In this document: positions 21,344-33,715 of the stretch, piece by piece
Numbering within the stretch: the stretch's first letter is position 1
Layout: the number at the start of each line of letters is the position of its first letter
From: an uncultured Atopobiaceae bacterium
Lineage (GTDB): Bacteria; Actinomycetota; Coriobacteriia; Coriobacteriales; Atopobiaceae
Reading direction: 5' to 3'
Assembly: GCA_947625405.1 (NCBI GenBank)
Contig: CANQOF010000006.1
Span: 1 to 64,000 of the forward strand
DNA: 64,000 nucleotides
The notes under the pieces: generated by a model
The model's input: only the letters and a program-made list of their open reading frames with translations
The model's database searches: none
Told to the model about the DNA's origin: nothing
Made by a program: the position numbers and the translations under genes

Positions 21344-22617
21344 CCAACGTCTCCGACTTCGTCATCCCGCGCTTCCACCCGGTGCTCGGCGACGTGATGG
21401 CCCATGGCCACACGCACTACTGGCTGCCGGGCGGGCGTGGCTCCACGAAGAGCTCGTTCATCTCCATAGCCATTGTTCTTCTCATCATTGCCAGCCCGAA
21501 GGCGAACGCGGTGGTGGTGAGGCGCTTCTCCAACACGCTGAGAGATTCCGTCTACCAGCAGATCCAGTGGGCCATCGAGGTGCTGGGCCTGGAGGGTGTC
21601 TTCCGCTGCCGCGTTTCTCCCATGGAGATCACCTATACCCCTACCGGGCAGCGCATCGTGTTCCGCGGTGCGGACGATCCCCTCAAATTGAAGGGCGTAA
21701 AGTTCACCAAGGGCTATTGCAGCGTGGTGTGGTTCGAGGAGCTCGACCAGTTCGAGGGTGTCGAAGCCGTGCGAAGCATTCTCAATTCTCTTCGCCGTGG
21801 CGGCGACCGCTTCTGGATCTTCTATTCCTACAACCCGCCGAAGACGATGTGGAGCTGGGTGAACGTGGAGCGCCTGGAACGTGTGAGGCGTGACGACACC
21901 CTTGTGCGCGGTAGCTCTTATCTCGATGTGATTGAGACGCATCCCGACTGGCTGGGCGCACCCTTTGTCGAGGAGGCCGAGTACCTGCGCGACACGAACG
22001 AGCAGGCCTGGCGTTGGGAGTATTTGGGCGAGATCACCGGGACCGGTGGCGCCATCTTCGACAACGTGCACGAGGCGAAGCTTTCCGACTCTCGCATCCG
22101 CACCTTCCAACGTATTCGCAATGGTGTGGACTGGGGCTGGTTCCCGGATCCGTGGCGCTTTGTCCGCTGTGCTTGGGAGCCTGATGCCAGGCGCCTTCTC
22201 GTCTTCGAGGAGCATTCCGCAAACAAGATGATGCCGGCGGAGACGGGCAAGATCGTGGTGGATTCTCTCACCTTCCCAGACGAACAGGGCGCGGAGGCGT
22301 ACTTCCACGACCAGATTGTCTACTGCGACGACACGCCTGATAGCAAGGTGCAGATGAACGTGTGGAGACGCGAACTCGGCATTCGCGTGCATGCGGCGCG
22401 CAAGGCCAGGATGAGGCGCTTGTCTTACGAATGGTTGGCGGGGCTGCGCGAGATCGTGATTGACCCGGAGCGATGCCCCTTGACCTTCTCCGAATTCACC
22501 TTGAAGGAGTTCGAGAAGGACAAGGAGGGCAACTGGATTGACGAGATCCCAGATGGCAACGATCACAGCATCGACGCTGTTCGCTATGCCATGATGGACG
22601 ACGTATTGCGAGGTTAG
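21340..22617 (+). CDS. terL: Terminase large subunit
   Basis: The protein has 425 aa from GTG 21340, overlapping terS by four bases. The ATPase domain has Walker A WLPGGRGSTKSSF (about residue 30) and Walker B VVWFEELDQF. The nuclease domain has YCDDTPDSKVQ and a terminal NDHSIDAVRYAM with a metal-binding Asp. This is the PBSX/Terminase_3 type. It packages DNA into the prohead and cuts concatemers. Length is normal and the reading frame is intact. Confidence 0.93.
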   Translation: MTNVSDFVIPRFHPVLGDVMAHGHTHYWLPGGRGSTKSSFISIAIVLLIIASPKANAVVVRRFSNTLRDSVYQQIQWAIEVLGLEGVFRCRVSPMEITYTPTGQRIVFRGADDPLKLKGVKFTKGYCSVVWFEELDQFEGVEAVRSILNSLRRGGDRFWIFYSYNPPKTMWSWVNVERLERVRRDDTLVRGSSYLDVIETHPDWLGAPFVEEAEYLRDTNEQAWRWEYLGEITGTGGAIFDNVHEAKLSDSRIRTFQRIRNGVDWGWFPDPWRFVRCAWEPDARRLLVFEEHSANKMMPAETGKIVVDSLTFPDEQGAEAYFHDQIVYCDDTPDSKVQMNVWRRELGIRVHAARKARMRRLSYEWLAGLREIVIDPERCPLTFSEFTLKEFEKDKEGNWIDEIPDGNDHSIDAVRYAMMDDVLRG

Positions 22618-23337: not shown

Positions 23338-24810
23338 ATGGGCGTGAACGGCCTGGATGAGTATTGGGTACCGGAGCATGTGAAGGACTATCTGAGCAAG
23401 CTCGGGTTTATCCTTCCCCTGGATGACATGGAGCCTTGGATTCGTAGCTGGGATGACTGGATGTCGGCGCGCGGGGAGTTTTACGACTACCGAGACAAGG
23501 ACGGTATGGGGCGCGTGTATGCGGTTCACCGTAGGAGCATTCACCCGGCAATGAGGGTCTGCAAGGAATGGGGTTCTCTTCTCCTCAACGAGGAAGTCAA
23601 GGTTGTCTGCGATAACCAGAAGGCCACCGACTGGATCAACATGTTCTTCTCGTCTACCAACTTCATGAACGCGGCGCAGGCCAACGTGGTGCGTGCGTTT
23701 GGCCTTGGCACGGGCGCCTGGGCCCTTTGGCTCGACCTGGACAAGAGGAAGGTCCGCATTCGCCATTACGACGCACGCATGGTTATCCCGCTGTCATGGG
23801 ACGAGGACGGGATCTCGGAATGCGCCTTCGTCACGCGGGCTTTCTACCGTGGGAAGGCCGTGGACCAGCTGCAGATGCACCTGCGCGGCGGCATGGGCTT
23901 CTCGGCGGACCTTTCCCCATCCGCACCTTCCCACGAGAGCGAGGAAGCTCTTCTCGCCCATGAAAGCGAGGAGACGTACAGGATCGTCACCGTCTGCTTC
24001 GACCATGAGGGAAACGAGCTCGCGCCTGCGGGTATCCTCCCGATCTACGATACCGGTTGTCCTTTCCCTACCTTCGGCATCGTGAAGCCGGCCGTCACCA
24101 ATACGCGCGTGGACATGAGCCCCTATGGGCAGAGCGTGTTCGCAGACGCGGTGGATGCCGTCCAGGCGGTGGACCTCACCTTCGACGCTCTTATCAACGA
24201 GATCGACCTCAGCAAGATGAGGGTGTTCTTGTCGGACGTCCTATTCGACCGCGAGTAGGACGGGAACAAGAACGTCACCATCCCGTTCGGCAAGCAGGAC
24301 TGCACCGTGTTCCGCAAGGTCATGAGCACGGAGGACACGATCCAGGAGTTCGCGCCGGCGCTTCGCACGAGCGGGCAAATCGAGGCGTTCCGCGTTGCCC
24401 TGCAGATGCTTGGCGACCTGACCGGCTTCGGCATCAGCTACTTCGACATGGACGAGTCTCGGGGGTATGTGAAGACGGCCACCGAGGTCTCTTCCGACAA
24501 CTCGGCGCTCATGCGCAACATCCGCCGGCACGAGAATAGCCTGGAGGGCTCGATCGTCTCGATAGCGAAAGCAGTCATGCACGCGTCGCGATCCTTCGGC
24601 GAGGGCATCCCTGACGAGGGCGAGGTCCGCGTGCAGTTCGACGACTCCATCATCCAGGACACGGCAGCGGAGAAGGAGCAGGACATGCGCGAGGTGGGCG
24701 TCACCATGGGCGCCTGGGAGTACAGGATGCGCTGGTATGGGGAGGAAGAGTCCATCGCACGCGCCAGGGCGGCAGAGATCGGCACGGGCAAGGGTAAGGG
24801 CAAGGAATGA
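23338..24810 (+). CDS. Portal protein with in-frame amber codon
   Basis: Translation from ATG 23338 gives 306 aa, stopping at TAG 24256-24258 (VLFDRE, stop, DGNKNVTIPF). The same frame then stays open for another 183 codons to TGA 24808-24810. The whole 490-residue frame looks like an SPP1/A118-type portal: RRSIHPAMRVCKEWGSLLLN, CFDHEGNELAPAG, YGQSVFADAVDAVQAVDLTF, SGQIEAFRVALQMLGDLTGF, and a C-terminal tail KGKGKE. The portal forms the DNA channel and cannot work without its C-terminal third. The second half shows no decay apart from the stop. Point nonsense, readthrough or sequencing error are all possible. Confidence 0.8.
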
Positions 24811-25086: not shown

Positions 25087-25172
25087 GATTAGCAATATGT
25101 AATCTCTGTGGAAAGGTGATTAGCACTTGATAATACTCTGGTCTGGGCTTATCATATTATCAGTTGCTAATC
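25087..25172. promoter_or_regulatory. GATTAGCA operator cluster
   Basis: GATTAGCA occurs at 25087-25094 and 25118-25125, 31 bp or three helical turns apart. It recurs inverted as TGCTAATC at 25165-25172. All lie in the divergent promoter between the XRE gene and the 86-aa gene. Likely binding sites of the XRE protein. Confidence 0.6.
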
Positions 25173-25192
25173 TCTACCGATTGGAGGACACC

Positions 25193-25453
25193 ATGACCAC
25201 CGCGACCGCCACAGCCTTCAAGCTCCCCGACCTGGACACCGTCTACCACTGCGAGGGGCTCGGCACCATGACCCTGGGCCAGATGCTCGACGGCGTCGAC
25301 CCCGACCTGATCCCCTCCGACCAGACCATGTACGAGGACCTGCTGTGGGCCTTCGGCGCCTGGGAGAGCCTGGAGGAGATGAACGCGGCCATGGCCACGA
25401 GGGTGTACGCCACGAGCCTCGACGGCAGGGTGGGCTTCAGGCTGGTCAAGTAG
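25193..25453 (+). CDS. Unknown 86-aa protein paired with the XRE gene
   Basis: The ATG at 25193 is preceded by TTGGAGGACACC. The protein is acidic and soluble (LPDLDTVYHCEGLGTMTLGQ, PSDQTMYEDLLWAFGAWESL). The second half is a helix plus a short strand (TSLDGRVGFRLVK). No family recognised. Divergence from a small XRE regulator with shared operators recalls toxin-antitoxin or lysogenic-conversion pairs, but no toxin motif is seen. It also precedes the palindromic RNA-like segment on the same strand, so it may be co-transcribed with it. Confidence 0.6.
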   Translation: MTTATATAFKLPDLDTVYHCEGLGTMTLGQMLDGVDPDLIPSDQTMYEDLLWAFGAWESLEEMNAAMATRVYATSLDGRVGFRLVK

Positions 25454-26347
25454 CCGGCGCCGCCACAACCGAATACGCGATCACCTGGGGGCGGCCTGCG
25501 GGTCGCCCCTGCTGCGTGACGACCGCGGCCTTTGGCTCTGCCGCCGACGGTGCGCACAGGCCACGCAAGCGCGCAGCCCCACAACGGCAGCGCCATGGGG
25601 CCGGCAGGCCGTGCGGCGCGCGCAGGGAGGGAAGGCCACCCGGGCAGCGGGCGGCCAGAAAACGTTGCAGGTGCTGGCACACAGGGGGCCGTGGGCGTGG
25701 GCGGCTGAGCCCGCAGCGACGAACAGACCGCCGCAAGGCGGGCTGTGAGGCGCCGTGGCGAAGACGCACGCGCCCACGGCCCTCTGTGTGCCAGCGCAGG
25801 CCGGGAGCGTGGACGGCGGCCGTGGCTGAGCGCCGCCCGACGAACAGACCCGCGCCAGCGGGGCTGTGAGGCGGAGCGCGAAGACACGGCCGCCGGCCAC
25901 GCTCCCGGCCGTCCCCGGTTGACTTGCACGCCGCCCGCTGCCCGGGTGGCCTTCCCGACCCGCGCCGCACGGCCTGCCGGCCCCATGGCGCGGACAACCC
26001 TCGATGACTCTGCGCTTGCGTGGCCCGTGCGCATGACCCGGCGGCAGACAAAACACAAACAGCGTCTGCTGTCTGAATTGAGAAGCAGGCTCAGATCTCT
26101 TCAATATGGAATAGAACAGCCATATGCGCCTGCAGTTGCTTGGATGAGTCGAGCACTGTGAGCAGCGCTTTAGATTGGTTGTTATCGCTTTCAACATGTC
26201 AGAGTCGCACAGTCTGAGAAAAACTCACCTGACGGTATAATTGCATACCATGAGAAGGGATAACGGCTGCTTGATGCCGTGTAATGGCACGACAGGCGAA
26301 ATATCTCTTCTCTGAAATGCTGACGACATGCGAGGAGGCTGAGAATT
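25454..26347. other. Long gene-free stretch: palindromic RNA-like element and promoter
   Basis: The long frames on both strands across 25.45-26.05 kb follow from the GC-rich palindrome and have no coding features. Positions 25487-26048 form the structured element annotated separately. After 26050 the base composition drops sharply to AT-rich, marking the cargo junction. A TATAAT at 26236-26241 may be the -10 of the restriction gene. A 21-codon frame from ATG 26250 could be a leader, unsupported. Confidence 0.6.
25487..26048 (+). ncRNA. Candidate large structured RNA with two homologous arms
   Basis: Outer helices: TCTGCCGCCG with CGGCGGCAGA; GGCCACGCAAGCGC with GCGCTTGCGTGGCC; a 31-bp perfect stem between about 25591 and 25990; and a 24-bp perfect stem (25631-25654 with 25931-25954). 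Inside are two side-by-side hairpins, A (25673-25795) and B (25799-25910). Their basal stems are each about 25 bp and unrelated in sequence. Their loops share GGCTGAGC, the 13-mer CGACGAACAGACC and GCGAAGAC. Each loop also has an inner hairpin ACAG-A-N5-GNNA-N5'-G-CTGT, with CCGCC/GGCGG in A and CCCGC/GCGGG in B. Different but complementary stems around fixed loop bases is the pattern of conserved RNA structure. The strand is chosen from the GCAA (GNRA) tetraloop. Size and prophage location recall ornate phage RNAs such as GOLLD and ROOL, but membership is untested. Confidence 0.6.
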
Positions 26348-26938
26348 ATGGGTTCGCCATACGACGGTCATTCTGTGCGCGAATGGGACCGCATAACCCA
26401 ACAGTTGATTGATGAGCACCCATTGGAAGAGGAAGAGATTGTTGAAGTCGTGCTGGAAGCTTGGGAAAGCATTATGCAGACCAAAATCGGCGGCAAGCTT
26501 CAAATCGGGGTTGATGTGCTTCCTAGTCCACAAATCCTGGGCAACTATCTTCACATGCTAACCGCTGCGATTTTTGCAGAAAGATACCCTGGCATTTGGA
26601 GAGGTGAAATCGACAAAAGCGATAAGGACGTGGTCTATATTAATGACGATTACTACTCGTTTGAAATCAAGACCTCATCGCAGAACAGCATCTACGGGAA
26701 CAGGAGCTATGGTCAGCCAAATAGCGACAACAGTTCTGGTAAAGCAAAGTTTGGCTATTACCTAGCTATTAATTTCGAGAAATTCACGCAAACGCATCGC
26801 CATCCTGTAATAAAGCGTATTAAGTTCGGATGGATAGATCACTCTGACTGGCATGCGCAAGCAGCAGCGACTGGCCAAAACTCAACTCTTGATAGGGATG
26901 CATGGAATCATAAGTTGAAGCTTCTTTACGGAAGCTGA
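26348..26938 (+). CDS. ScaI-family type II restriction endonuclease
   Basis: The protein has 196 aa, with GAGGAGG upstream. The central block VLPSPQILGNYLHML, then AERYPGIWRGE, KDVVYINDDYYSFEIKTSSQ and YGNRSYGQ is what I recognise as the RE_ScaI family. The PD-(D/E)xK site is likely Asp in KDVVY with E-I-K in FEIKTSS. GWIDHSDWHAQAAATGQNS near the end is also typical. ScaI cuts AGTACT; the specificity here is inferred from family only. The gene is AT-rich compared with the phage. It is convergent with the methyltransferase gene, sharing a terminator-like hairpin. Confidence 0.85.
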   Translation: MGSPYDGHSVREWDRITQQLIDEHPLEEEEIVEVVLEAWESIMQTKIGGKLQIGVDVLPSPQILGNYLHMLTAAIFAERYPGIWRGEIDKSDKDVVYINDDYYSFEIKTSSQNSIYGNRSYGQPNSDNSSGKAKFGYYLAINFEKFTQTHRHPVIKRIKFGWIDHSDWHAQAAATGQNSTLDRDAWNHKLKLLYGS

Positions 26939-26999: not shown

Positions 27000-29189
27000 T
27001 CAGATCTCCCATTTTTCCCTATACATCTCTGACCACCAGCCGTTTCGCTTCTCGGTAATTTCATAGTCTGAGGCTATTTCCTCTACGCTTGAAAGAAGCG
27101 TAGATAGGACAGTTACGCTTTCATCTCGCAGATTGCCATCAAGTAGATAGCGAGTCGGAAGGCAGGAATAAAACTCGGCAATAGCGATGTTCTGCATATC
27201 AGGTACGGTTACTTCCGCCTCTACCCTTTGAAGCCGATCGAGCGTTTCAAGTAATGTGCTCTTCGCTTTGTCCAAGGCACTATTCAACAAGTCAGACATA
27301 CTTTCGAATGCCTCAACCTTGCTATCGGTCTTTTGGGACACGAGCATTATGTCGATACCAATGGAATTCTTATTCGAGGTATGCGCCCCTGTTCTTGTTT
27401 CCGCCTGCACCGGGTAGCACTTAATCAATTTAAAGCCAGATTTGGCAATGCTCTCTAATACCGCAAGCCAGCTATCGAGACTTTTGTCGTGGAATGAGAA
27501 TACAAGGAAGCCTTCATCCTTAACTTTTGCATGGCATTCTGTCAGAACATCAGTCAGACCAGCCTGGTAATACGAGAAGTCTTTTCCTGCGACCGAGTTA
27601 ACGACGATTTCATCCGTTTTTGGCGACAATGGCTCCGTGAAGCCTAGCTCGTCAGCAATGCTGCTCAGATAATTCCAAACATGGAAGAAATCTATGAGCT
27701 CCGAGTACATAACGTTGGCTCCATATGGAGGGTCGGTCAATACGATATCGACCGAACAATCCGGTACGAACGACAGATTCCTCGAGTCACCACACCTTAA
27801 AAGTGGATGGGTGGCATCCATGTCTGAGAACTCTGTAACAGGGGTCGCTTGCACGATGTCCGTACTTGGCATTTTTACTGAGTCATATCTCCCCTTACTG
27901 TTCGCTGCGACCGAGAGATCATATATTCCCTTGTTGAAACGCTTCCCTCGTAAGATTTTCTGGACCGTCTTTACGAAAGTACCGGTACCGAGATGGGCGC
28001 CCCAAACGCAATTCTCCACGGGCATCGATATCGGGACATAGGCATGATTAAAGAAAATATTGCATATCTTATAGGCATTTTGCTGATACCTGCAGAACAT
28101 GTTGTTCATCTCCAACATGCCCGAGAAGGCAAGCTGCAGCCAAAGCTGGATGTTTCTGTCTTCGACTTTGTTTATCGCGTCAAGAAGAAGGCCGAGACAA
28201 AGCAACTGACGCTCATTGAACAGATCACGAAAACGCCTGTACCCGTGATTGAGTATCTGGTTCGTGTTGTATCCGACAGGTATCACCTGGTCAGGCATGG
28301 GAAGACTATTCTCTAGTTCAGCAAAATCGTTAATTGCCTTCTGCCGTAGTTCGATGTCCCTAGAATCAGGCTGTTTATAACCATGGTAGCCACAATGCGG
28401 GCAACAATACTCTATGGCAATTACGTCAGTCTCAAAGGGATACCCCGTCTCCGGCCCATAATCGGTCAAAATACGCGACTCACCACAGTCAGGGCAAGTG
28501 AATCTACCGCTTTTCACGTATGAGCTACGAGGGTTTTCGAGTGACCAACCACATTCGCACTCGAAAGGACCTTCCTTGAATTTGGTTTCGGACAACTTGC
28601 CGCATTTCGGACATGCGACAGTAAAAGTATCCTTTTTATAAGCGATGATGAAGCTTGAGAAGAAGCGGTGCTCGTGGTCACAATTGCATGATTTTGCCTT
28701 CTTAACATGGAATGAGTACATCCCATCGGCGTCCTTGCCGCAGTGTGGGCAAGTAGTCTTGTAGTATGACTTGATTCGGGCGCCTACCGTTTCTTCAAGC
28801 CTCTTGACCTCGCGATTAACAGCTCTCTCGTCTACTGGTTCTACCAGTGCTTTAGTCACAAATAGCGACAATGGCTGCAAGTCATTACCGATGACTTTGC
28901 ATCCGAAGCGTAGCGCCTCAAATATCGTAGTGCCGCCGCCCATAAAAGGATCCAGTACCGTTATGTCCTCGCGTTGAATTGAGGGTCTGTAAAATTGGTC
29001 CAGGATGTCGCCCTCGCCATCCGACATGTAGCCAAGTAGCGCGAGCCTGAAATTCGCCGTGATTCTTCTAGCGAAATACTTGTGAATGAAGAACACCGGT
29101 TTCTTTCGACTGGCCTCTTTTCGTGATGCCTGGTAGAGACGGTCGTATGGCATATCTGCGCAAAACCTATTATCATTCGCAGCGCTCAC
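27000..29189 (-). CDS. DNA amino-methyltransferase with zinc ribbons
   Basis: The protein has 729 aa, taking GTG 29189 as start (AGAAGGGG upstream); TTG 29210 is an alternative. The SAM-binding motif VLDPFMGGGTTIFEALRFG is at about 85-105. The catalytic motif IVLTDPPYGANV is around 470, giving a DPPY-type N4-cytosine or N6-adenine enzyme. Between them sits a large insert with several CxxC pairs (TCPHCGKD, ACPKCGKLSE, CECGW, CPDCGESR, CCPHCGYHG), presumably zinc ribbons for target recognition. The convergent ScaI-like nuclease suggests this enzyme protects its site. It is AT-rich like the nuclease, so the two were probably acquired together. Confidence 0.85.
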   Translation of the reverse strand: MSAANDNRFCADMPYDRLYQASRKEASRKKPVFFIHKYFARRITANFRLALLGYMSDGEGDILDQFYRPSIQREDITVLDPFMGGGTTIFEALRFGCKVIGNDLQPLSLFVTKALVEPVDERAVNREVKRLEETVGARIKSYYKTTCPHCGKDADGMYSFHVKKAKSCNCDHEHRFFSSFIIAYKKDTFTVACPKCGKLSETKFKEGPFECECGWSLENPRSSYVKSGRFTCPDCGESRILTDYGPETGYPFETDVIAIEYCCPHCGYHGYKQPDSRDIELRQKAINDFAELENSLPMPDQVIPVGYNTNQILNHGYRRFRDLFNERQLLCLGLLLDAINKVEDRNIQLWLQLAFSGMLEMNNMFCRYQQNAYKICNIFFNHAYVPISMPVENCVWGAHLGTGTFVKTVQKILRGKRFNKGIYDLSVAANSKGRYDSVKMPSTDIVQATPVTEFSDMDATHPLLRCGDSRNLSFVPDCSVDIVLTDPPYGANVMYSELIDFFHVWNYLSSIADELGFTEPLSPKTDEIVVNSVAGKDFSYYQAGLTDVLTECHAKVKDEGFLVFSFHDKSLDSWLAVLESIAKSGFKLIKCYPVQAETRTGAHTSNKNSIGIDIMLVSQKTDSKVEAFESMSDLLNSALDKAKSTLLETLDRLQRVEAEVTVPDMQNIAIAEFYSCLPTRYLLDGNLRDESVTVLSTLLSSVEEIASDYEITEKRNGWWSEMYREKWEI

Positions 29190-29336
29190 TGCGGTACCCC
29201 TTCTAATCAAATGAACGATCTACGTGTTGGCTACACTCATCAAGAACGTGTGCAGCCGGACACGGAAGATTCATCCTACCAGCCACCATAACGCTTCGGA
29301 GAATCGCACCGATGATTTGCGGTCCTTATCGATAAA

Positions 29337-32009
29337 TCATGCATGGTGATGCGCCTTCCGACGGCGATCCTCTATGGTCTTTCGCCATTCGTCTAAAGCG
29401 TTTACATCGTTCTCGAACTCTTGGATAGTTGGCAATGAATCGGGCGTTGCGAGAGGATCATCGTGTGCGTTGGTGAGCAATGAGCACTTGGTCATGTTCT
29501 CTTCAACAATCCTGATATCCTCGTCAGTTATGTCGGAAAGCCACTTCATCTGCTGTGTATGAATTGGTCGCTCCGCTCTCTTGACCACACCCGCCAGAAG
29601 CACCTGCTCAACAGCTCTCTCCCATGTTGATCTCAGGTCACTATAGCAATCACGCAGTTCTTTGCCAAGCTCTGCGTCAGTCTTGATTACACTGGTTTTG
29701 TATAGGCGCCGAAGATCGTTGGCCCTGTTCCTAAGAGCTCCAATGCGCTTCTTGACATTGCTTGCATCCCAATCAAGCTCATTAATGATAATACCTGTGA
29801 GCGCGCCTCTTTTTTGCACGGTGCGATAGGCCACCGGGACAACCTGTTTGGCCGAAAGCTCGGATATTGCATAACAAAACATGGGTTCATGAGTGAAGAC
29901 AACAACCGGGCGGGACTTCGCTTCTTCGACTATTCGCTCTGCGACGGCCGCACGCCAAAGATGATCGAGCGACGTTATTGGATCGTCAAGAATCACCGTC
30001 GAGTTGCCCGGCATCACATCTAATAGCGCAAAGAATCCCGCAAGCGCAACAATCTTCTGCTCTCCTTCGCTTAGCACGCTTCGTGTAGATGCGCTTGCAC
30101 CTTCCAGCATGATGCGCTGATACTCCTGACCAGCACGAGCACGTGTTGATATGGCGACTTGTTGGTTGGACGCCTTGAGTCTCTTGAGCTCGGCTACGAA
30201 CGCCGATTGCATCCTTTCGACAACTTCGACCTTCGAGACTGCCGAGATGAGTGTCGTCGCGGATCTGGTATTGCATTTCTTTCTTGCGGCTTCAAGTCCT
30301 TTCCTGGTCTCACGATTTTTGGCATCGCCCGCAAGCAGCTCCTTGTTGGCATCAATCCAAGCGCGTGCATTAAAAGCAAGCAGCTCAGACTTTAGCTTCT
30401 CCGCATTGTCTGGCTCCATGCCCTCGCGAAGCGACGTCATGCGCTGCTCAAGCGCGTCAATCTCGTCTCTTACGTATTTCCCGGCCTGCTGAGTATGCGC
30501 AGAGAGCGACTCGAGCATAGCTACATCGGGCACTGCTACAACAGGCTCGAGCTTCTGCATCAGCGCGTCCATCTCGCTTCTTGCTTGCTCCGTTGCCAAT
30601 ATTCCTATGCCAGAAGCGTCGCTCTTAACGGCCCTGACGGCGTTGACAAAACGAGTCTCCAGCTCGCTCAGGGTCCTGCTCTTCTCCGTCAGGTTCTTCT
30701 CGGCAACGCCGTTGACATAGGACTCGAAAGCATCCATGCGAGCCATGGTTTCGACTCCCAATGGTTGCTGACAAAGCGGGCAGAGGGAATCCTTCGGGAG
30801 CTTAGGATATCTGCTTCCCACATAGGCGAAGCTGTCCGAATACTTGCGCGCGGCTTCCCAGAGCGCTTTCCACGCATCGCTACCAAACCCATCCAAAGGT
30901 GAGTTATTGCTTGCGAGGGCACTCGCCGCTTTTGCCGCCTCCATCGCCTGATCTACTGCAGCACGCGCCTTCTCGAAGGTTTGGCCGAACGACGGTTGAC
31001 AGCATTGATACAACTCCGCCAGCCTTCCACGCATTGCCTTAAGTTGGAAGTGGCGTCTTTCGAGTTTCGGGAGCTCAACACTTGGCTCTGATTCTATGAG
31101 CTTGGGCAGCATCGCGCGTCTTGCTACCTCTTCGGGGCTGAGTGTCGCTTCTCCTATTAGCCTCGTCGCTTCGGCTTCGGATGAGCAGGACAGCAATGCC
31201 GTCACTTCCGGCAATGATCGCAGCTCAGACGGGATGGCCCTTGCATCGAGAGAATCTGTCAGCCGATTCTCTTGCTGCTGAATACGGTTGGCAACAGCCG
31301 TGATCAGCTCTGGAAGTAGAGCAAGCGATGAGATTACACCTGGCGCGTATAGGATTGCATTGTCCTTGTCGCCAATCTCCATGGCGGCACAGGCGGAGTC
31401 AAAGTAAGCGATTTCGGGAAACGTCGGATATGACGTCTCGCCATCCTTCCAAGTGAAAGAAGTCGGTATGCCATTGAGCTTGACACTGAACGAAGCCGAA
31501 GGCGTGACCTTGCTTTCGAATACATTTGAGAGAATGCTTTCCGAGCCCGTGCGAGAGGTGCATGCGTTGCGTATCATGCGGCTAAAACCTGATTTGCCTG
31601 ACCCATTGTTGCCATAGATGACTGTAATGCCGGTGGTAGCAACGTCTAGCTTGGAGCCTGGCTCTATGGCATTGATGCCAGTTTCAGCAGTAATCGACTC
31701 AAGCAATACCTCGCGCTGCGATGACCCTATGCTGCCAAGATCAGATGCATCGAACCCAGTAGGTTCAACAACGTTATCGATGCCAAGTGCAACTCCTGTT
31801 TCCTTACAAGCGGCAATGGCAAGAGCGTCCACCTGCTCGGCAGTATATTCGCCCTGCAATGCGATATGTAGTGCTGCAGAGCACCAAGATGGCTGGTTTG
31901 CAACCCATTTGAGGATGGTTGATTCAAGGCTTTGATTTCGTTCTTCCAAGTGCATGACCTCTGATTTCTCTACCGTCAAATCGTTAACCTTAGATTGTAC
32001 CCGAGACAT
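29337..32009 (-). CDS. AAA_13-type ATPase with zinc hook, probable defence protein
   Basis: The protein has 890 aa from ATG 32009 (TGGAAG upstream; ATG 31967 is possible). Walker A is TVIYGNNGSGKSGFSRMIRN at about 150. A long coiled coil follows, with a Rad50-like hook LCPLCQQPLG near 420. The signature is LSEGEQKIVALAGFFA, Walker B STVILDDPITSLD, and the His switch VVVFTHEPMFCY. The C-terminus is helical, ending MTKCSLLTNAHDDP. This is the SMC/RecF-like AAA_13 architecture of RloC and other anti-phage proteins. I do not see a clear anticodon-nuclease triad. Location beside a restriction system in phage cargo supports a defence role. Confidence 0.8.
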   Translation of the reverse strand: MSRVQSKVNDLTVEKSEVMHLEERNQSLESTILKWVANQPSWCSAALHIALQGEYTAEQVDALAIAACKETGVALGIDNVVEPTGFDASDLGSIGSSQREVLLESITAETGINAIEPGSKLDVATTGITVIYGNNGSGKSGFSRMIRNACTSRTGSESILSNVFESKVTPSASFSVKLNGIPTSFTWKDGETSYPTFPEIAYFDSACAAMEIGDKDNAILYAPGVISSLALLPELITAVANRIQQQENRLTDSLDARAIPSELRSLPEVTALLSCSSEAEATRLIGEATLSPEEVARRAMLPKLIESEPSVELPKLERRHFQLKAMRGRLAELYQCCQPSFGQTFEKARAAVDQAMEAAKAASALASNNSPLDGFGSDAWKALWEAARKYSDSFAYVGSRYPKLPKDSLCPLCQQPLGVETMARMDAFESYVNGVAEKNLTEKSRTLSELETRFVNAVRAVKSDASGIGILATEQARSEMDALMQKLEPVVAVPDVAMLESLSAHTQQAGKYVRDEIDALEQRMTSLREGMEPDNAEKLKSELLAFNARAWIDANKELLAGDAKNRETRKGLEAARKKCNTRSATTLISAVSKVEVVERMQSAFVAELKRLKASNQQVAISTRARAGQEYQRIMLEGASASTRSVLSEGEQKIVALAGFFALLDVMPGNSTVILDDPITSLDHLWRAAVAERIVEEAKSRPVVVFTHEPMFCYAISELSAKQVVPVAYRTVQKRGALTGIIINELDWDASNVKKRIGALRNRANDLRRLYKTSVIKTDAELGKELRDCYSDLRSTWERAVEQVLLAGVVKRAERPIHTQQMKWLSDITDEDIRIVEENMTKCSLLTNAHDDPLATPDSLPTIQEFENDVNALDEWRKTIEDRRRKAHHHA

Positions 32010-32046
32010 TGCCGCAACTTCCAAAGCAGCCGACAACAAATGCGAC

Positions 32047-32070
32047 TTTGTGACGCGCTGCGACGATGCC
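32047..32070 (+). promoter_or_regulatory. TTTGTGACGCG element before scaffold/capsid operon
   Basis: TTTGTGACGCGCTGCGACGATGCC lies 91 nt before the scaffold start. It is the third copy and differs from the terminase copy at only a few positions over 24 bp. It restores late transcription after the oppositely oriented cargo. Confidence 0.6.
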
Positions 32071-32137
32071 CGTACCGGTAAAGGTGCGGGCATTGTTCGT
32101 CTCTGCCCGCCTTACGAGACGAAAGGCAGGACGGAAC

Positions 32138-32671
32138 ATGGACGGTGAGACCAATGGCGGCCAGGAAGCCACGCAGGGTGCGCAGGACGCGTCGCAACAG
32201 CAAGGCCAGGAGCAGCAACAGGAAACGCAGCAGGGCCAGTCGCAGGTAGAGGCCCCCGACTACGAGAAGCAGATCGCAGAGCGTGACGAGAAGATCGCAT
32301 CGCTCGAGGCGCAGGTGGCCGAGGCAGCCAAGAACGCCGAGACGGCCGAGCAGCTGCGCGGCGAGATCGCCGAGCTCAAAGCCCAGGGCGAGTCCGACCG
32401 CATCGACTTCAAGCTGCAGCTCGCGGGCGTGCGCAACGTGAAGGCGGCACGCGCCCTTCTCGCGGACCACGGCAACGACGTGGACAAGCTGAAAGAGGCC
32501 GAGCCCTGGCTCTTCGAGGCCGCGGGCAAGCACGCCAAGGGCGGCAACGGCGGCTCCGGCACGACCGGGTTCCCCAACGCGGGCGCTGCTTCCGACGAGG
32601 GCAAGACGCTCAAGCACTGGCGCGAGATCGCGGGCCTCACCGACGATGACGACACCAAGAAGGAGGGCTAA
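32138..32671 (+). CDS. Phage scaffolding protein
   Basis: The protein has 177 aa from ATG 32138, with AAAGGCAGGACGG upstream. A low-complexity Gln/Gly-rich N-terminus (NGGQEATQGAQDASQQQGQE) is followed by a long charged coiled coil (YEKQIAERDEKIASLEAQVA...LRGEIAELKAQG). An acidic C-terminus ends DDDDTKKEG. This is the layout of DUF4355/minor-structural scaffold proteins encoded just before the capsid. It guides prohead assembly and is lost before maturation. The capsid gene starts 3 nt after its stop. Confidence 0.82.
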   Translation: MDGETNGGQEATQGAQDASQQQGQEQQQETQQGQSQVEAPDYEKQIAERDEKIASLEAQVAEAAKNAETAEQLRGEIAELKAQGESDRIDFKLQLAGVRNVKAARALLADHGNDVDKLKEAEPWLFEAAGKHAKGGNGGSGTTGFPNAGAASDEGKTLKHWREIAGLTDDDDTKKEG

Positions 32672-32674
32672 GCC

Positions 32675-33715
32675 ATGCCTAGCAACAACATCGCATTCGC
32701 ACGCAACTACACCTCGGTCATCGACGAGGTGTACCAGAGGGCGTCCGTCTCGGGCGTTCTCAACTCCGGCCGCCGCATGGTCCGCGCCGGGCACAACGCG
32801 AAGGAGATCCTCATCCCGAAGATCTCCGTCACCGGTCTCGGCAACTACACCCGAAACGTGGGCTACAAGACCGGCGCCATCACCTACGAGTTCGAGACCA
32901 AGACCTTCAACTACGACCGCGGCATCCGCCTTTTCGCAGACGTCATGGACGTCGAGGAGGCGGGCGTGAACGACTGCTTCGTGGAAGCAGGCGCCGAGCT
33001 CCAGCGCACGCAGGTGGCCCCGGAGGCCGACGCCTTCACCTTCGCGCAGATTGCCGGGCACACCGGCGTCACCGTCGAGTCCGAGAGCTACGCTTCCGCC
33101 GACGCCGAGGACATCCTGGAGGACCTGCGCACGGTAACCTCCGCCATGGACGAGAAGCAGGTGACCCTGGGCAGCCGCATCCTGTTCATCACGCCCACGC
33201 TCAAGGGCGTCCTGGACGACTTCTCCTACGCGAACCCGAACCGCTCCAACCGCGTGCTCGAGCGCTTCTCGCGCATCGTGGAGGTGCCGCAGGTGCGCTT
33301 CTACACGGCCATCGACCTGCTCTCCGGCGACGACGACCAGTTCGGCTACCAGAAGCGCGCAGCGACCTACGAACTGACCACGGACACCGAGGTCGACTCC
33401 GGCAAGACGTACTACACCCGCTCGGGGTCCGGCACTTCGGCGAGCCCATACGTGTACACCGAGGTCGCGAGCCCCGTGAAGGCCAACCTGGGCACCTACT
33501 ACGAGATGACCACGACTCCCGGCCTGGACATCAACTTCATGGTCGTAGAGCGCAGCGCGGTCATCAAGTTCGACAAGCACGTGGCGTCGCGCGTGTTCTC
33601 CCCGGACGAGCTCGAGGCGCTGGACAGCTACATGATGAAGTATCGCAAGTACGGCATCGTGGAACTCTTCGACAACAAGCTCGACGGCGTGTACGTCTCG
33701 GCCTCCACGGAGTAA
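32675..33715 (+). CDS. Major capsid protein
   Basis: The protein has 346 aa. The opening NNIAFARNYTSVIDEVYQRA SVSGVLNSG and KEILIPKISVTGLGNYTRNVGY with FNYDRGIRLFADVMDVEEAG is typical of HK97-fold capsids of Firmicute and Coriobacteriia phages. An inserted domain at about 225-280 (TYELTTDTEVDSGKTYYTRS) probably projects from the shell surface. The C-terminus VVELF-like stretch (YRKYGIVELFDNKLDGVYVS) is also conserved. The reading frame is intact. Confidence 0.88.
   Translation: MPSNNIAFARNYTSVIDEVYQRASVSGVLNSGRRMVRAGHNAKEILIPKISVTGLGNYTRNVGYKTGAITYEFETKTFNYDRGIRLFADVMDVEEAGVNDCFVEAGAELQRTQVAPEADAFTFAQIAGHTGVTVESESYASADAEDILEDLRTVTSAMDEKQVTLGSRILFITPTLKGVLDDFSYANPNRSNRVLERFSRIVEVPQVRFYTAIDLLSGDDDQFGYQKRAATYELTTDTEVDSGKTYYTRSGSGTSASPYVYTEVASPVKANLGTYYEMTTTPGLDINFMVVERSAVIKFDKHVASRVFSPDELEALDSYMMKYRKYGIVELFDNKLDGVYVSASTE

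Follow-up and report, generated by a model that had tools for sequence, protein, structure and literature searches.

What is the half-kilobase palindrome that lies between a small gene and a restriction system in this Atopobiaceae prophage, and does it travel with the genes behind it? A sequence-only reading of the 64,000-nucleotide stretch analysed here (the window) had proposed a structured RNA, possibly of a new class, at 25487-26048, carried as phage cargo.

The element is a nested two-armed hairpin

Folding of 25487-26048 on the plus strand gave a minimum free energy of -463.9 kcal/mol, compared with -322.7 +/- 7.9 kcal/mol for 100 dinucleotide shuffles (z = -17.9). The minus strand of the same interval folds too (z = -16.2), because any palindrome folds on both strands. 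The nested palindrome was borne out by this fold, but its left end was not, as 25487-25510 is a separate hairpin that is part of the end of the upstream gene, and the conserved element begins at about 25536. The half-kilobase element itself is a nested two-armed hairpin, designated class A. Exact helix listing showed a terminal helix of 10 bp (25537-25546/26039-26048), a helix of 8+15 bp (25550-25573/26011-26034), and two outer helices of 31 bp (25590-25620/25961-25991) and 27 bp (25629-25655/25930-25956), both perfect and without G.U pairs; the 31 bp described earlier for the outer stem were recovered, and the 24 bp given for the second were extended to 27. Arm 1 contains a 29-bp helix (25671-25699/25769-25797), and arm 2 contains helices of 14+11 bp (25799-25812/25897-25910 and 25814-25824/25885-25895). 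No promoter-like site was seen upstream of the element in the window, and one was seen downstream at 26214-26241. The features are as follows.

25487-25510 (+): 10-bp hairpin of its own behind the upstream ORF, resembling a terminator but lacking a U tract; in relatives too, varied
25537-26048 (+): whole element, class A, two-armed, about 512 nt (fold z -17.9; helices; homologues in alignment A2)
25537-25573 (+): terminal stems, 5′ strand (TGCCGCC... end), partner 26011-26048 (exact helices; complementary though unrelated in L087)
25590-25655 (+): 31-bp and 27-bp outer stems, 5′ strand, partner 25930-25991 (helices; block-wise compensatory changes)
25656-25670 (+): conserved junction AGAAAACGTTGCAGG (GATAACCTTGCAGG in relatives; alignments A2 and A4)
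25671-25797 (+): arm 1 (repeat comparison; exact helices)
25703-25710 (+): GGCTGAGC of arm 1, 5′ half of the UGA/GAA tandem G.A internal loop (core in alignments A3/A6)
25723-25746 (+): arm 1 apical hairpin, ACAG-A-CCGCC-GCAA-GGCGG-G-CTGT (arm alignment, covariation)
25758-25765 (+): GCGAAGAC of arm 1, 3′ half of the tandem G.A internal loop (conserved core alignments)
25799-25910 (+): arm 2 (repeat comparison; exact helices)
25824-25831 (+): GGCTGAGC of arm 2 (conserved core alignments)
25844-25867 (+): arm 2 apical hairpin, GCCA loop (arm alignment, covariation)
25878-25885 (+): GCGAAGAC of arm 2 (conserved core alignments)
25911-25929 (+): conserved 3′ junction GTCCCCGGTTGACTTGCAC (alignments A2 and A4)
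25930-25991 (+): 27-bp and 31-bp outer stems, 3′ strand (exact helices)
26011-26048 (+): terminal stems, 3′ strand, ending ...GGCGGCAG (exact helices)
26049-26060 (+): A-rich tail past the last stem, RATAAATTC-like in relatives (tails compared across copies)

The two arms are direct repeats, 76% identical, with a common core of GGCUGAGC ... CAGACC-hairpin-GGGCUG ... GCGAAGAC (in DNA, GGCTGAGC ... GGGCTG ... GCGAAGAC). As the sequence-only reading had observed, the 13-mer CGACGAACAGACC is present in both arms (25717-25729 and 25838-25850), the basal stems are unrelated in sequence yet each complementary, and compensating changes distinguish the 5-bp apical stems, which are capped by a GCAA loop in arm 1 and a GCCA loop in arm 2. 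The core was kept across 29 otherwise divergent arms. Apical loops vary among GCAA, GCCA, GUCA, GAAA, GACA, GUAA, GAA, GCA and GUA; they are GNA/GNNA loops in which the third base is not limited to a purine. In L106 (8580-8680), about 100 nt with an open reverse strand (VRFKDGDSELFTQSVERGRAVTLTSALPSMAR) stand in place of the arm 1 apical hairpin; this coding-like insert had no Pfam match.

Related elements form an uncatalogued family in Coriobacteriia prophages

Comparison of the whole 64-kb window with Rfam 15, GOLLD, ROOL, HEARO and OLE included, gave no match to any family at the gathering threshold. When 25400-26150 was compared at E<=10, the best score was 23.2 bits against a cutoff of 40, to an unrelated family, and no Rfam match was found at the element in the loci of six relatives. 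A blastn search of a phage database returned only chance matches of about 21-52 nt, and the bacterium's own genome holds a single copy of the element. A search with the core pattern matched five, then seven viral contigs, as well as 56 genome contigs, of which only those from Coriobacteriia were real and the others were chance matches on a fold and GC check. Gordonibacter sp. An230 is among the carriers, as are several Coriobacteriaceae/Atopobiaceae metagenome-assembled genomes (MAGs). Using the protein of the ORF upstream of the element as a query gave further copies, plus decayed or deleted ones. An arm covariance model (R1) run against 400 genomes of the class revealed another form, about 383 nt long and with a single arm, and a single-arm covariance model (R2) revealed more copies, a class C with two nested modules, and further IMG/VR contigs, the E-values of both models being rough. 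Across 397 genomes of the phylum, matches were found solely in the same order as the window.

The Coriobacteriia prophage homologues that the sequence-only reading had suggested looking for thus number dozens, from gut and rumen, in three architectures: two-armed (about 510 nt), single-armed (about 383 nt, class B) and nested double-module (class C). Most carriers are MAG contigs, some of them incomplete. No description of such an element was found in the open-access literature. With its two arms, the element represents one form of a hitherto uncatalogued family of large modular hairpins on the sense strand, which a widespread group of Coriobacteriia prophages encodes between the portal gene and the scaffold/capsid genes. 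In L198, the interval between portal and cargo contains a tandem of two giant hairpin elements that differ from each other (portal end +60 to +900). The class B outer stem (columns 13-36 with 362-385 of alignment A4) has single A.G mismatches every 3-5 bp, at the same positions across copies.

Pairing is conserved while the stems change

Covariation was scored against shuffled and slid alignments, controls that ignore kinship among copies. Among 15 arms, 91.8% of cells were paired and both sides had changed in 13/30 pairs, with a covariation score of 0.313 compared with 0.110 for shuffled and 0.005-0.046 for slid alignments. The 20 whole single-arm elements had 97.7% of cells paired and both sides changed in 31/96 pairs, with a score of 0.198 compared with 0.097 (shuffled) and 0.014-0.062 (slid). 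Alignment A4 is misregistered in the arm of L145, L147, L148, L150 and L218, so its arm pairs need caution, and its outer-stem pairs are well aligned. The combined class A and class B alignment (A6) was excluded from the counts due to a one-base misregister at the 5-bp/4-bp apical stem, and alignment A5 was discarded as it contained reverse-strand palindrome hits. Stems have been replaced by compensatory changes while the core persists; these changes are block-wise (L010 compared with the window), and L087, a divergent copy, has a terminal stem of unrelated sequence that is nevertheless complementary. The missing Rfam match, the homologues and the covariation above controls support the structured element that had been proposed; that it is an RNA is likely rather than proven, as discussed below.

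The element forms the left edge of a defence hotspot in the head operon

The genes around the element are those of a phage head operon interrupted by cargo.

21400-22617 (+): terminase large subunit (Terminase_3; domain match)
23338-24810 (+): SPP1-like portal gene, broken by a TAG at 24256-24258 (domain match)
25127-25453 (+): 108-codon ORF directly upstream of the element
26348-26938 (+): ScaI-type restriction endonuclease, cargo
27000-29210 (-): DNA methyltransferase, cargo
29337-32093 (-): AAA_13/PDC-S06 defence candidate protein, cargo, beside the ScaI-type restriction pair
32066-32671 (+): capsid scaffold protein, right border of the cargo
32675-33715 (+): major head protein (phrog_422)

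The prophage in the window is probably defective, given the in-frame TAG in its portal gene. A small HTH gene on the opposite strand sits between the portal gene and the 108-codon ORF, which had been read as an 86-aa gene; it is open for 108 codons, but has about 86-87 from a later start. This ORF had no Pfam or PHROG match, and is a marker of class A and of some decayed copies. The restriction system reported to adjoin the element corresponds to the ScaI-type endonuclease and its neighbouring methyltransferase.

To extend this beyond the window, 40 regions 3′ of homologous portals were fetched (417 kb in total) and searched with R2 at >=29 bits. The module was present in 24 of the 40 loci, at +71 to +1115 from the portal end and in the sense of the portal in 24/24, and nothing else in the 417 kb reached E<0.01 with R2. 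A portal gene was again upstream of most single-arm copies. The scaffold and capsid genes, where found in close relatives, lie about 5-12 kb beyond the portal. Behind more distant portals (about 45-57% identity; L226-L228) another gene is followed by the scaffold, and the element is absent.

The genes directly behind the element differ in nearly every phage. They include restriction systems of ScaI, LlaJI-type, Bpu10I + IetS, EcoRII, type I, type III, IIG and Eco57I-like types, as well as AbiD, BREX BrxC/PglY and a C5-methylase with HATPase. With its fixed site and the variable defence genes behind it, the element bounds on the left a defence hotspot that lies within the head operon. The proposal that the element is itself phage cargo therefore fails, since it keeps its place between portal and cargo while the cargo behind it varies among phages. 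Element and cargo are not strictly linked: L078 and L080 have kept cargo and lost the element, and L222 has almost no cargo, its capsid gene lying just 1.6 kb from the portal; the candidate structure of L222 (z = -7.95) was recognised from fold and motif alone, without a model hit. Deletions inside or at the element are common. In L084 (G046:C10), a deletion has brought the major capsid gene directly up against the element's left end, so that no cargo separates the two. Repeats resembling ACGGTCTTCTC fill a few hundred bases between the element and the cargo genes in L011, L013, L024 and L080.

The sense strand is constrained, likely as RNA

Single mismatches within helices were strongly biased between strands, with 172 G.A compared with 6 C.U and 15 G.G compared with 0 C.C; the sense strand is therefore the one that is folded and constrained. 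Over all variants, G.U was found in 30 and A.C in 26 columns, a preference weaker than expected for RNA under strong pairing selection. In class B, variants shared by at least two copies gave 7 G.U compared with 2 A.C columns, and singletons gave 11 compared with 10. Many of the copies belong to prophages that are decaying, and this would contribute neutral singleton variants. The G.U/A.C ratio had been considered as proof of DNA, and was dropped once shared variants were separated from singletons.

Through template switching, DNA can acquire or restore stems, with compensatory changes that need no RNA function (PMC8794818), and the stems of the element could be maintained in this way. Like such quasi-palindromes (PMC8794818), the element has long stems, block-wise compensatory changes and few G.U intermediates, but it also keeps a sense-strand core with G.A mismatches. 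Template switching alone is insufficient to account for this core, as it would erase the mismatches. Judged from these patterns of sequence change, the element likely works as RNA rather than as single-stranded DNA; this is not proven, because G.U scarcely exceeds A.C and template switching also makes compensatory changes.

Alternative explanations

Coding can be set aside most readily. Several long antisense ORFs cross the element, but three antisense frames that overlap one another are all open, which is to be expected with GC at about 76%, and copies differ by single-base indels (GCAA/GAA loops, an extra A at GGAAGCGCG). With 1-nt indels in the loops there is no conserved protein frame. Protein frames conserved without base pairing had been named as evidence that would count against a structured RNA; the copies instead keep the pairing across these indels. 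Protein coding on either strand was rejected on the indels and the three open frames, and a coding or pseudogene region on the antisense strand is extremely improbable. Little better can be said of a mobile palindromic element (MITE, IS200/IS605-like end or attC-like cassette) inserted beside the cargo. Terminal inverted ends (TGCCGCC...GGCGGCA) in many copies would fit, but the single genomic copy, one phage position and one orientation throughout the carriers examined and the exchange of the terminal stem for an unrelated one in L087 do not; it was rejected for its single site and is very unlikely. No RT domain was found among the neighbouring proteins tested, as would be sought for a retron or RT-linked ncRNA.

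A DNA-level element deserves more weight, and is nevertheless rather unlikely. Here the long imperfect palindrome would fold on its sense strand as single-stranded DNA or a cruciform during phage replication, serving as a break or recombination hotspot that aids exchange of defence cargo, or as a protein-bound site, with its stems repaired by template switching. The near-equal G.U and A.C mismatches, the block-wise changes between L010 and the window, the position at the edge of the cargo hotspot and the frequent deletions are consistent with this, as are the loops, since the GNA/GNNA class is very stable in DNA and the third base need not be a purine. The strand bias of the mismatches and the tandem G.A core conserved on one strand only argue against it, as do the lean to G.U among shared class B variants and the constant orientation of the element with respect to the portal. 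A trans-acting large ornate phage RNA resembling GOLLD or ROOL, cut out of the late transcript as a free RNA or RNP in which the repeated core would be a protein- or RNA-binding module, is possible but doubtful. Its size (383-512 nt), prophage location, identical module repeated in unrelated stems, A-rich tail after the terminal stem and candidate copy without large cargo (L222) speak for it; the lack of an Rfam match in the window or the six relatives' loci, one invariable place and orientation rather than varied contexts, and the lack of a tRNA island in the 64-kb window speak against it.

A tentative cis-acting role

Our tentative preference is for a cis-acting sense-strand RNA that would let late transcription pass the cargo or would separate transcripts, as this makes the best use of the fixed border position. 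The element would be transcribed within the late head-gene transcript, fold in the nascent RNA and work in cis where the late genes of the phage meet the foreign cargo. By binding RNA polymerase or a protein, it may allow late transcription to reach the capsid genes through about 5-12 kb of cargo that has promoters of its own and genes in the opposite direction; alternatively, processing of the RNA may split head-gene from cargo transcripts. Fold stability, covariation, the conserved core, the mismatch bias, the fixed place and the changing cargo speak for this reading; the lack of a promoter-like site upstream, the weak G.U preference, the scope for template switching and the loose tie between element and cargo speak against it. 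The more specific idea of a giant modular phage RNA, of a new class, by which late transcription crosses a swappable defence island inside the head operon, is put forward as a doubtful one.

GOLLD and ROOL are elaborate prophage-borne structures of several hundred nucleotides whose function is unknown, and lie usually, but not obligatorily, near tRNA islands (PMC12286853). The element is like them in size and in prophage location, flanked by terminase, portal, scaffold and major head protein genes. It is unlike them in consisting of a single very long hairpin whose helices are long and perfect and whose modules are repeated, in having no sequence or covariance-model match to them, and in lying at a portal/cargo border with no tRNA in 64 kb. 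An abundant discrete transcript or RNA cage is a trait of GOLLD and ROOL. Processive antitermination RNAs of the HK022 put and EAR type are cis-acting nascent structures of roughly 70-120 nt upstream of read-through genes; the likeness is limited to the proposed way of working, and the element is far larger. P2/P4-type prophage hotspots also carry variable anti-phage systems at a fixed prophage place, and here the hotspot is inside the head operon with a conserved structured element as its left edge.

Implications for Coriobacteriia phages

The element is of an already known kind, a large structured phage element, and its genomic context makes its function testable. What is new is an uncatalogued family of such elements that share a conserved core, come in at least three architectures and keep a fixed position next to a defence hotspot in the head operon. 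This provides a testable link between a large structured phage element and a genomic role, the border of cargo, which GOLLD and ROOL still lack. The portal gene together with the module is a marker for finding defence systems in gut Coriobacteriia. If the element is indeed a read-through RNA, a phage could carry any defence cargo without losing capsid expression.
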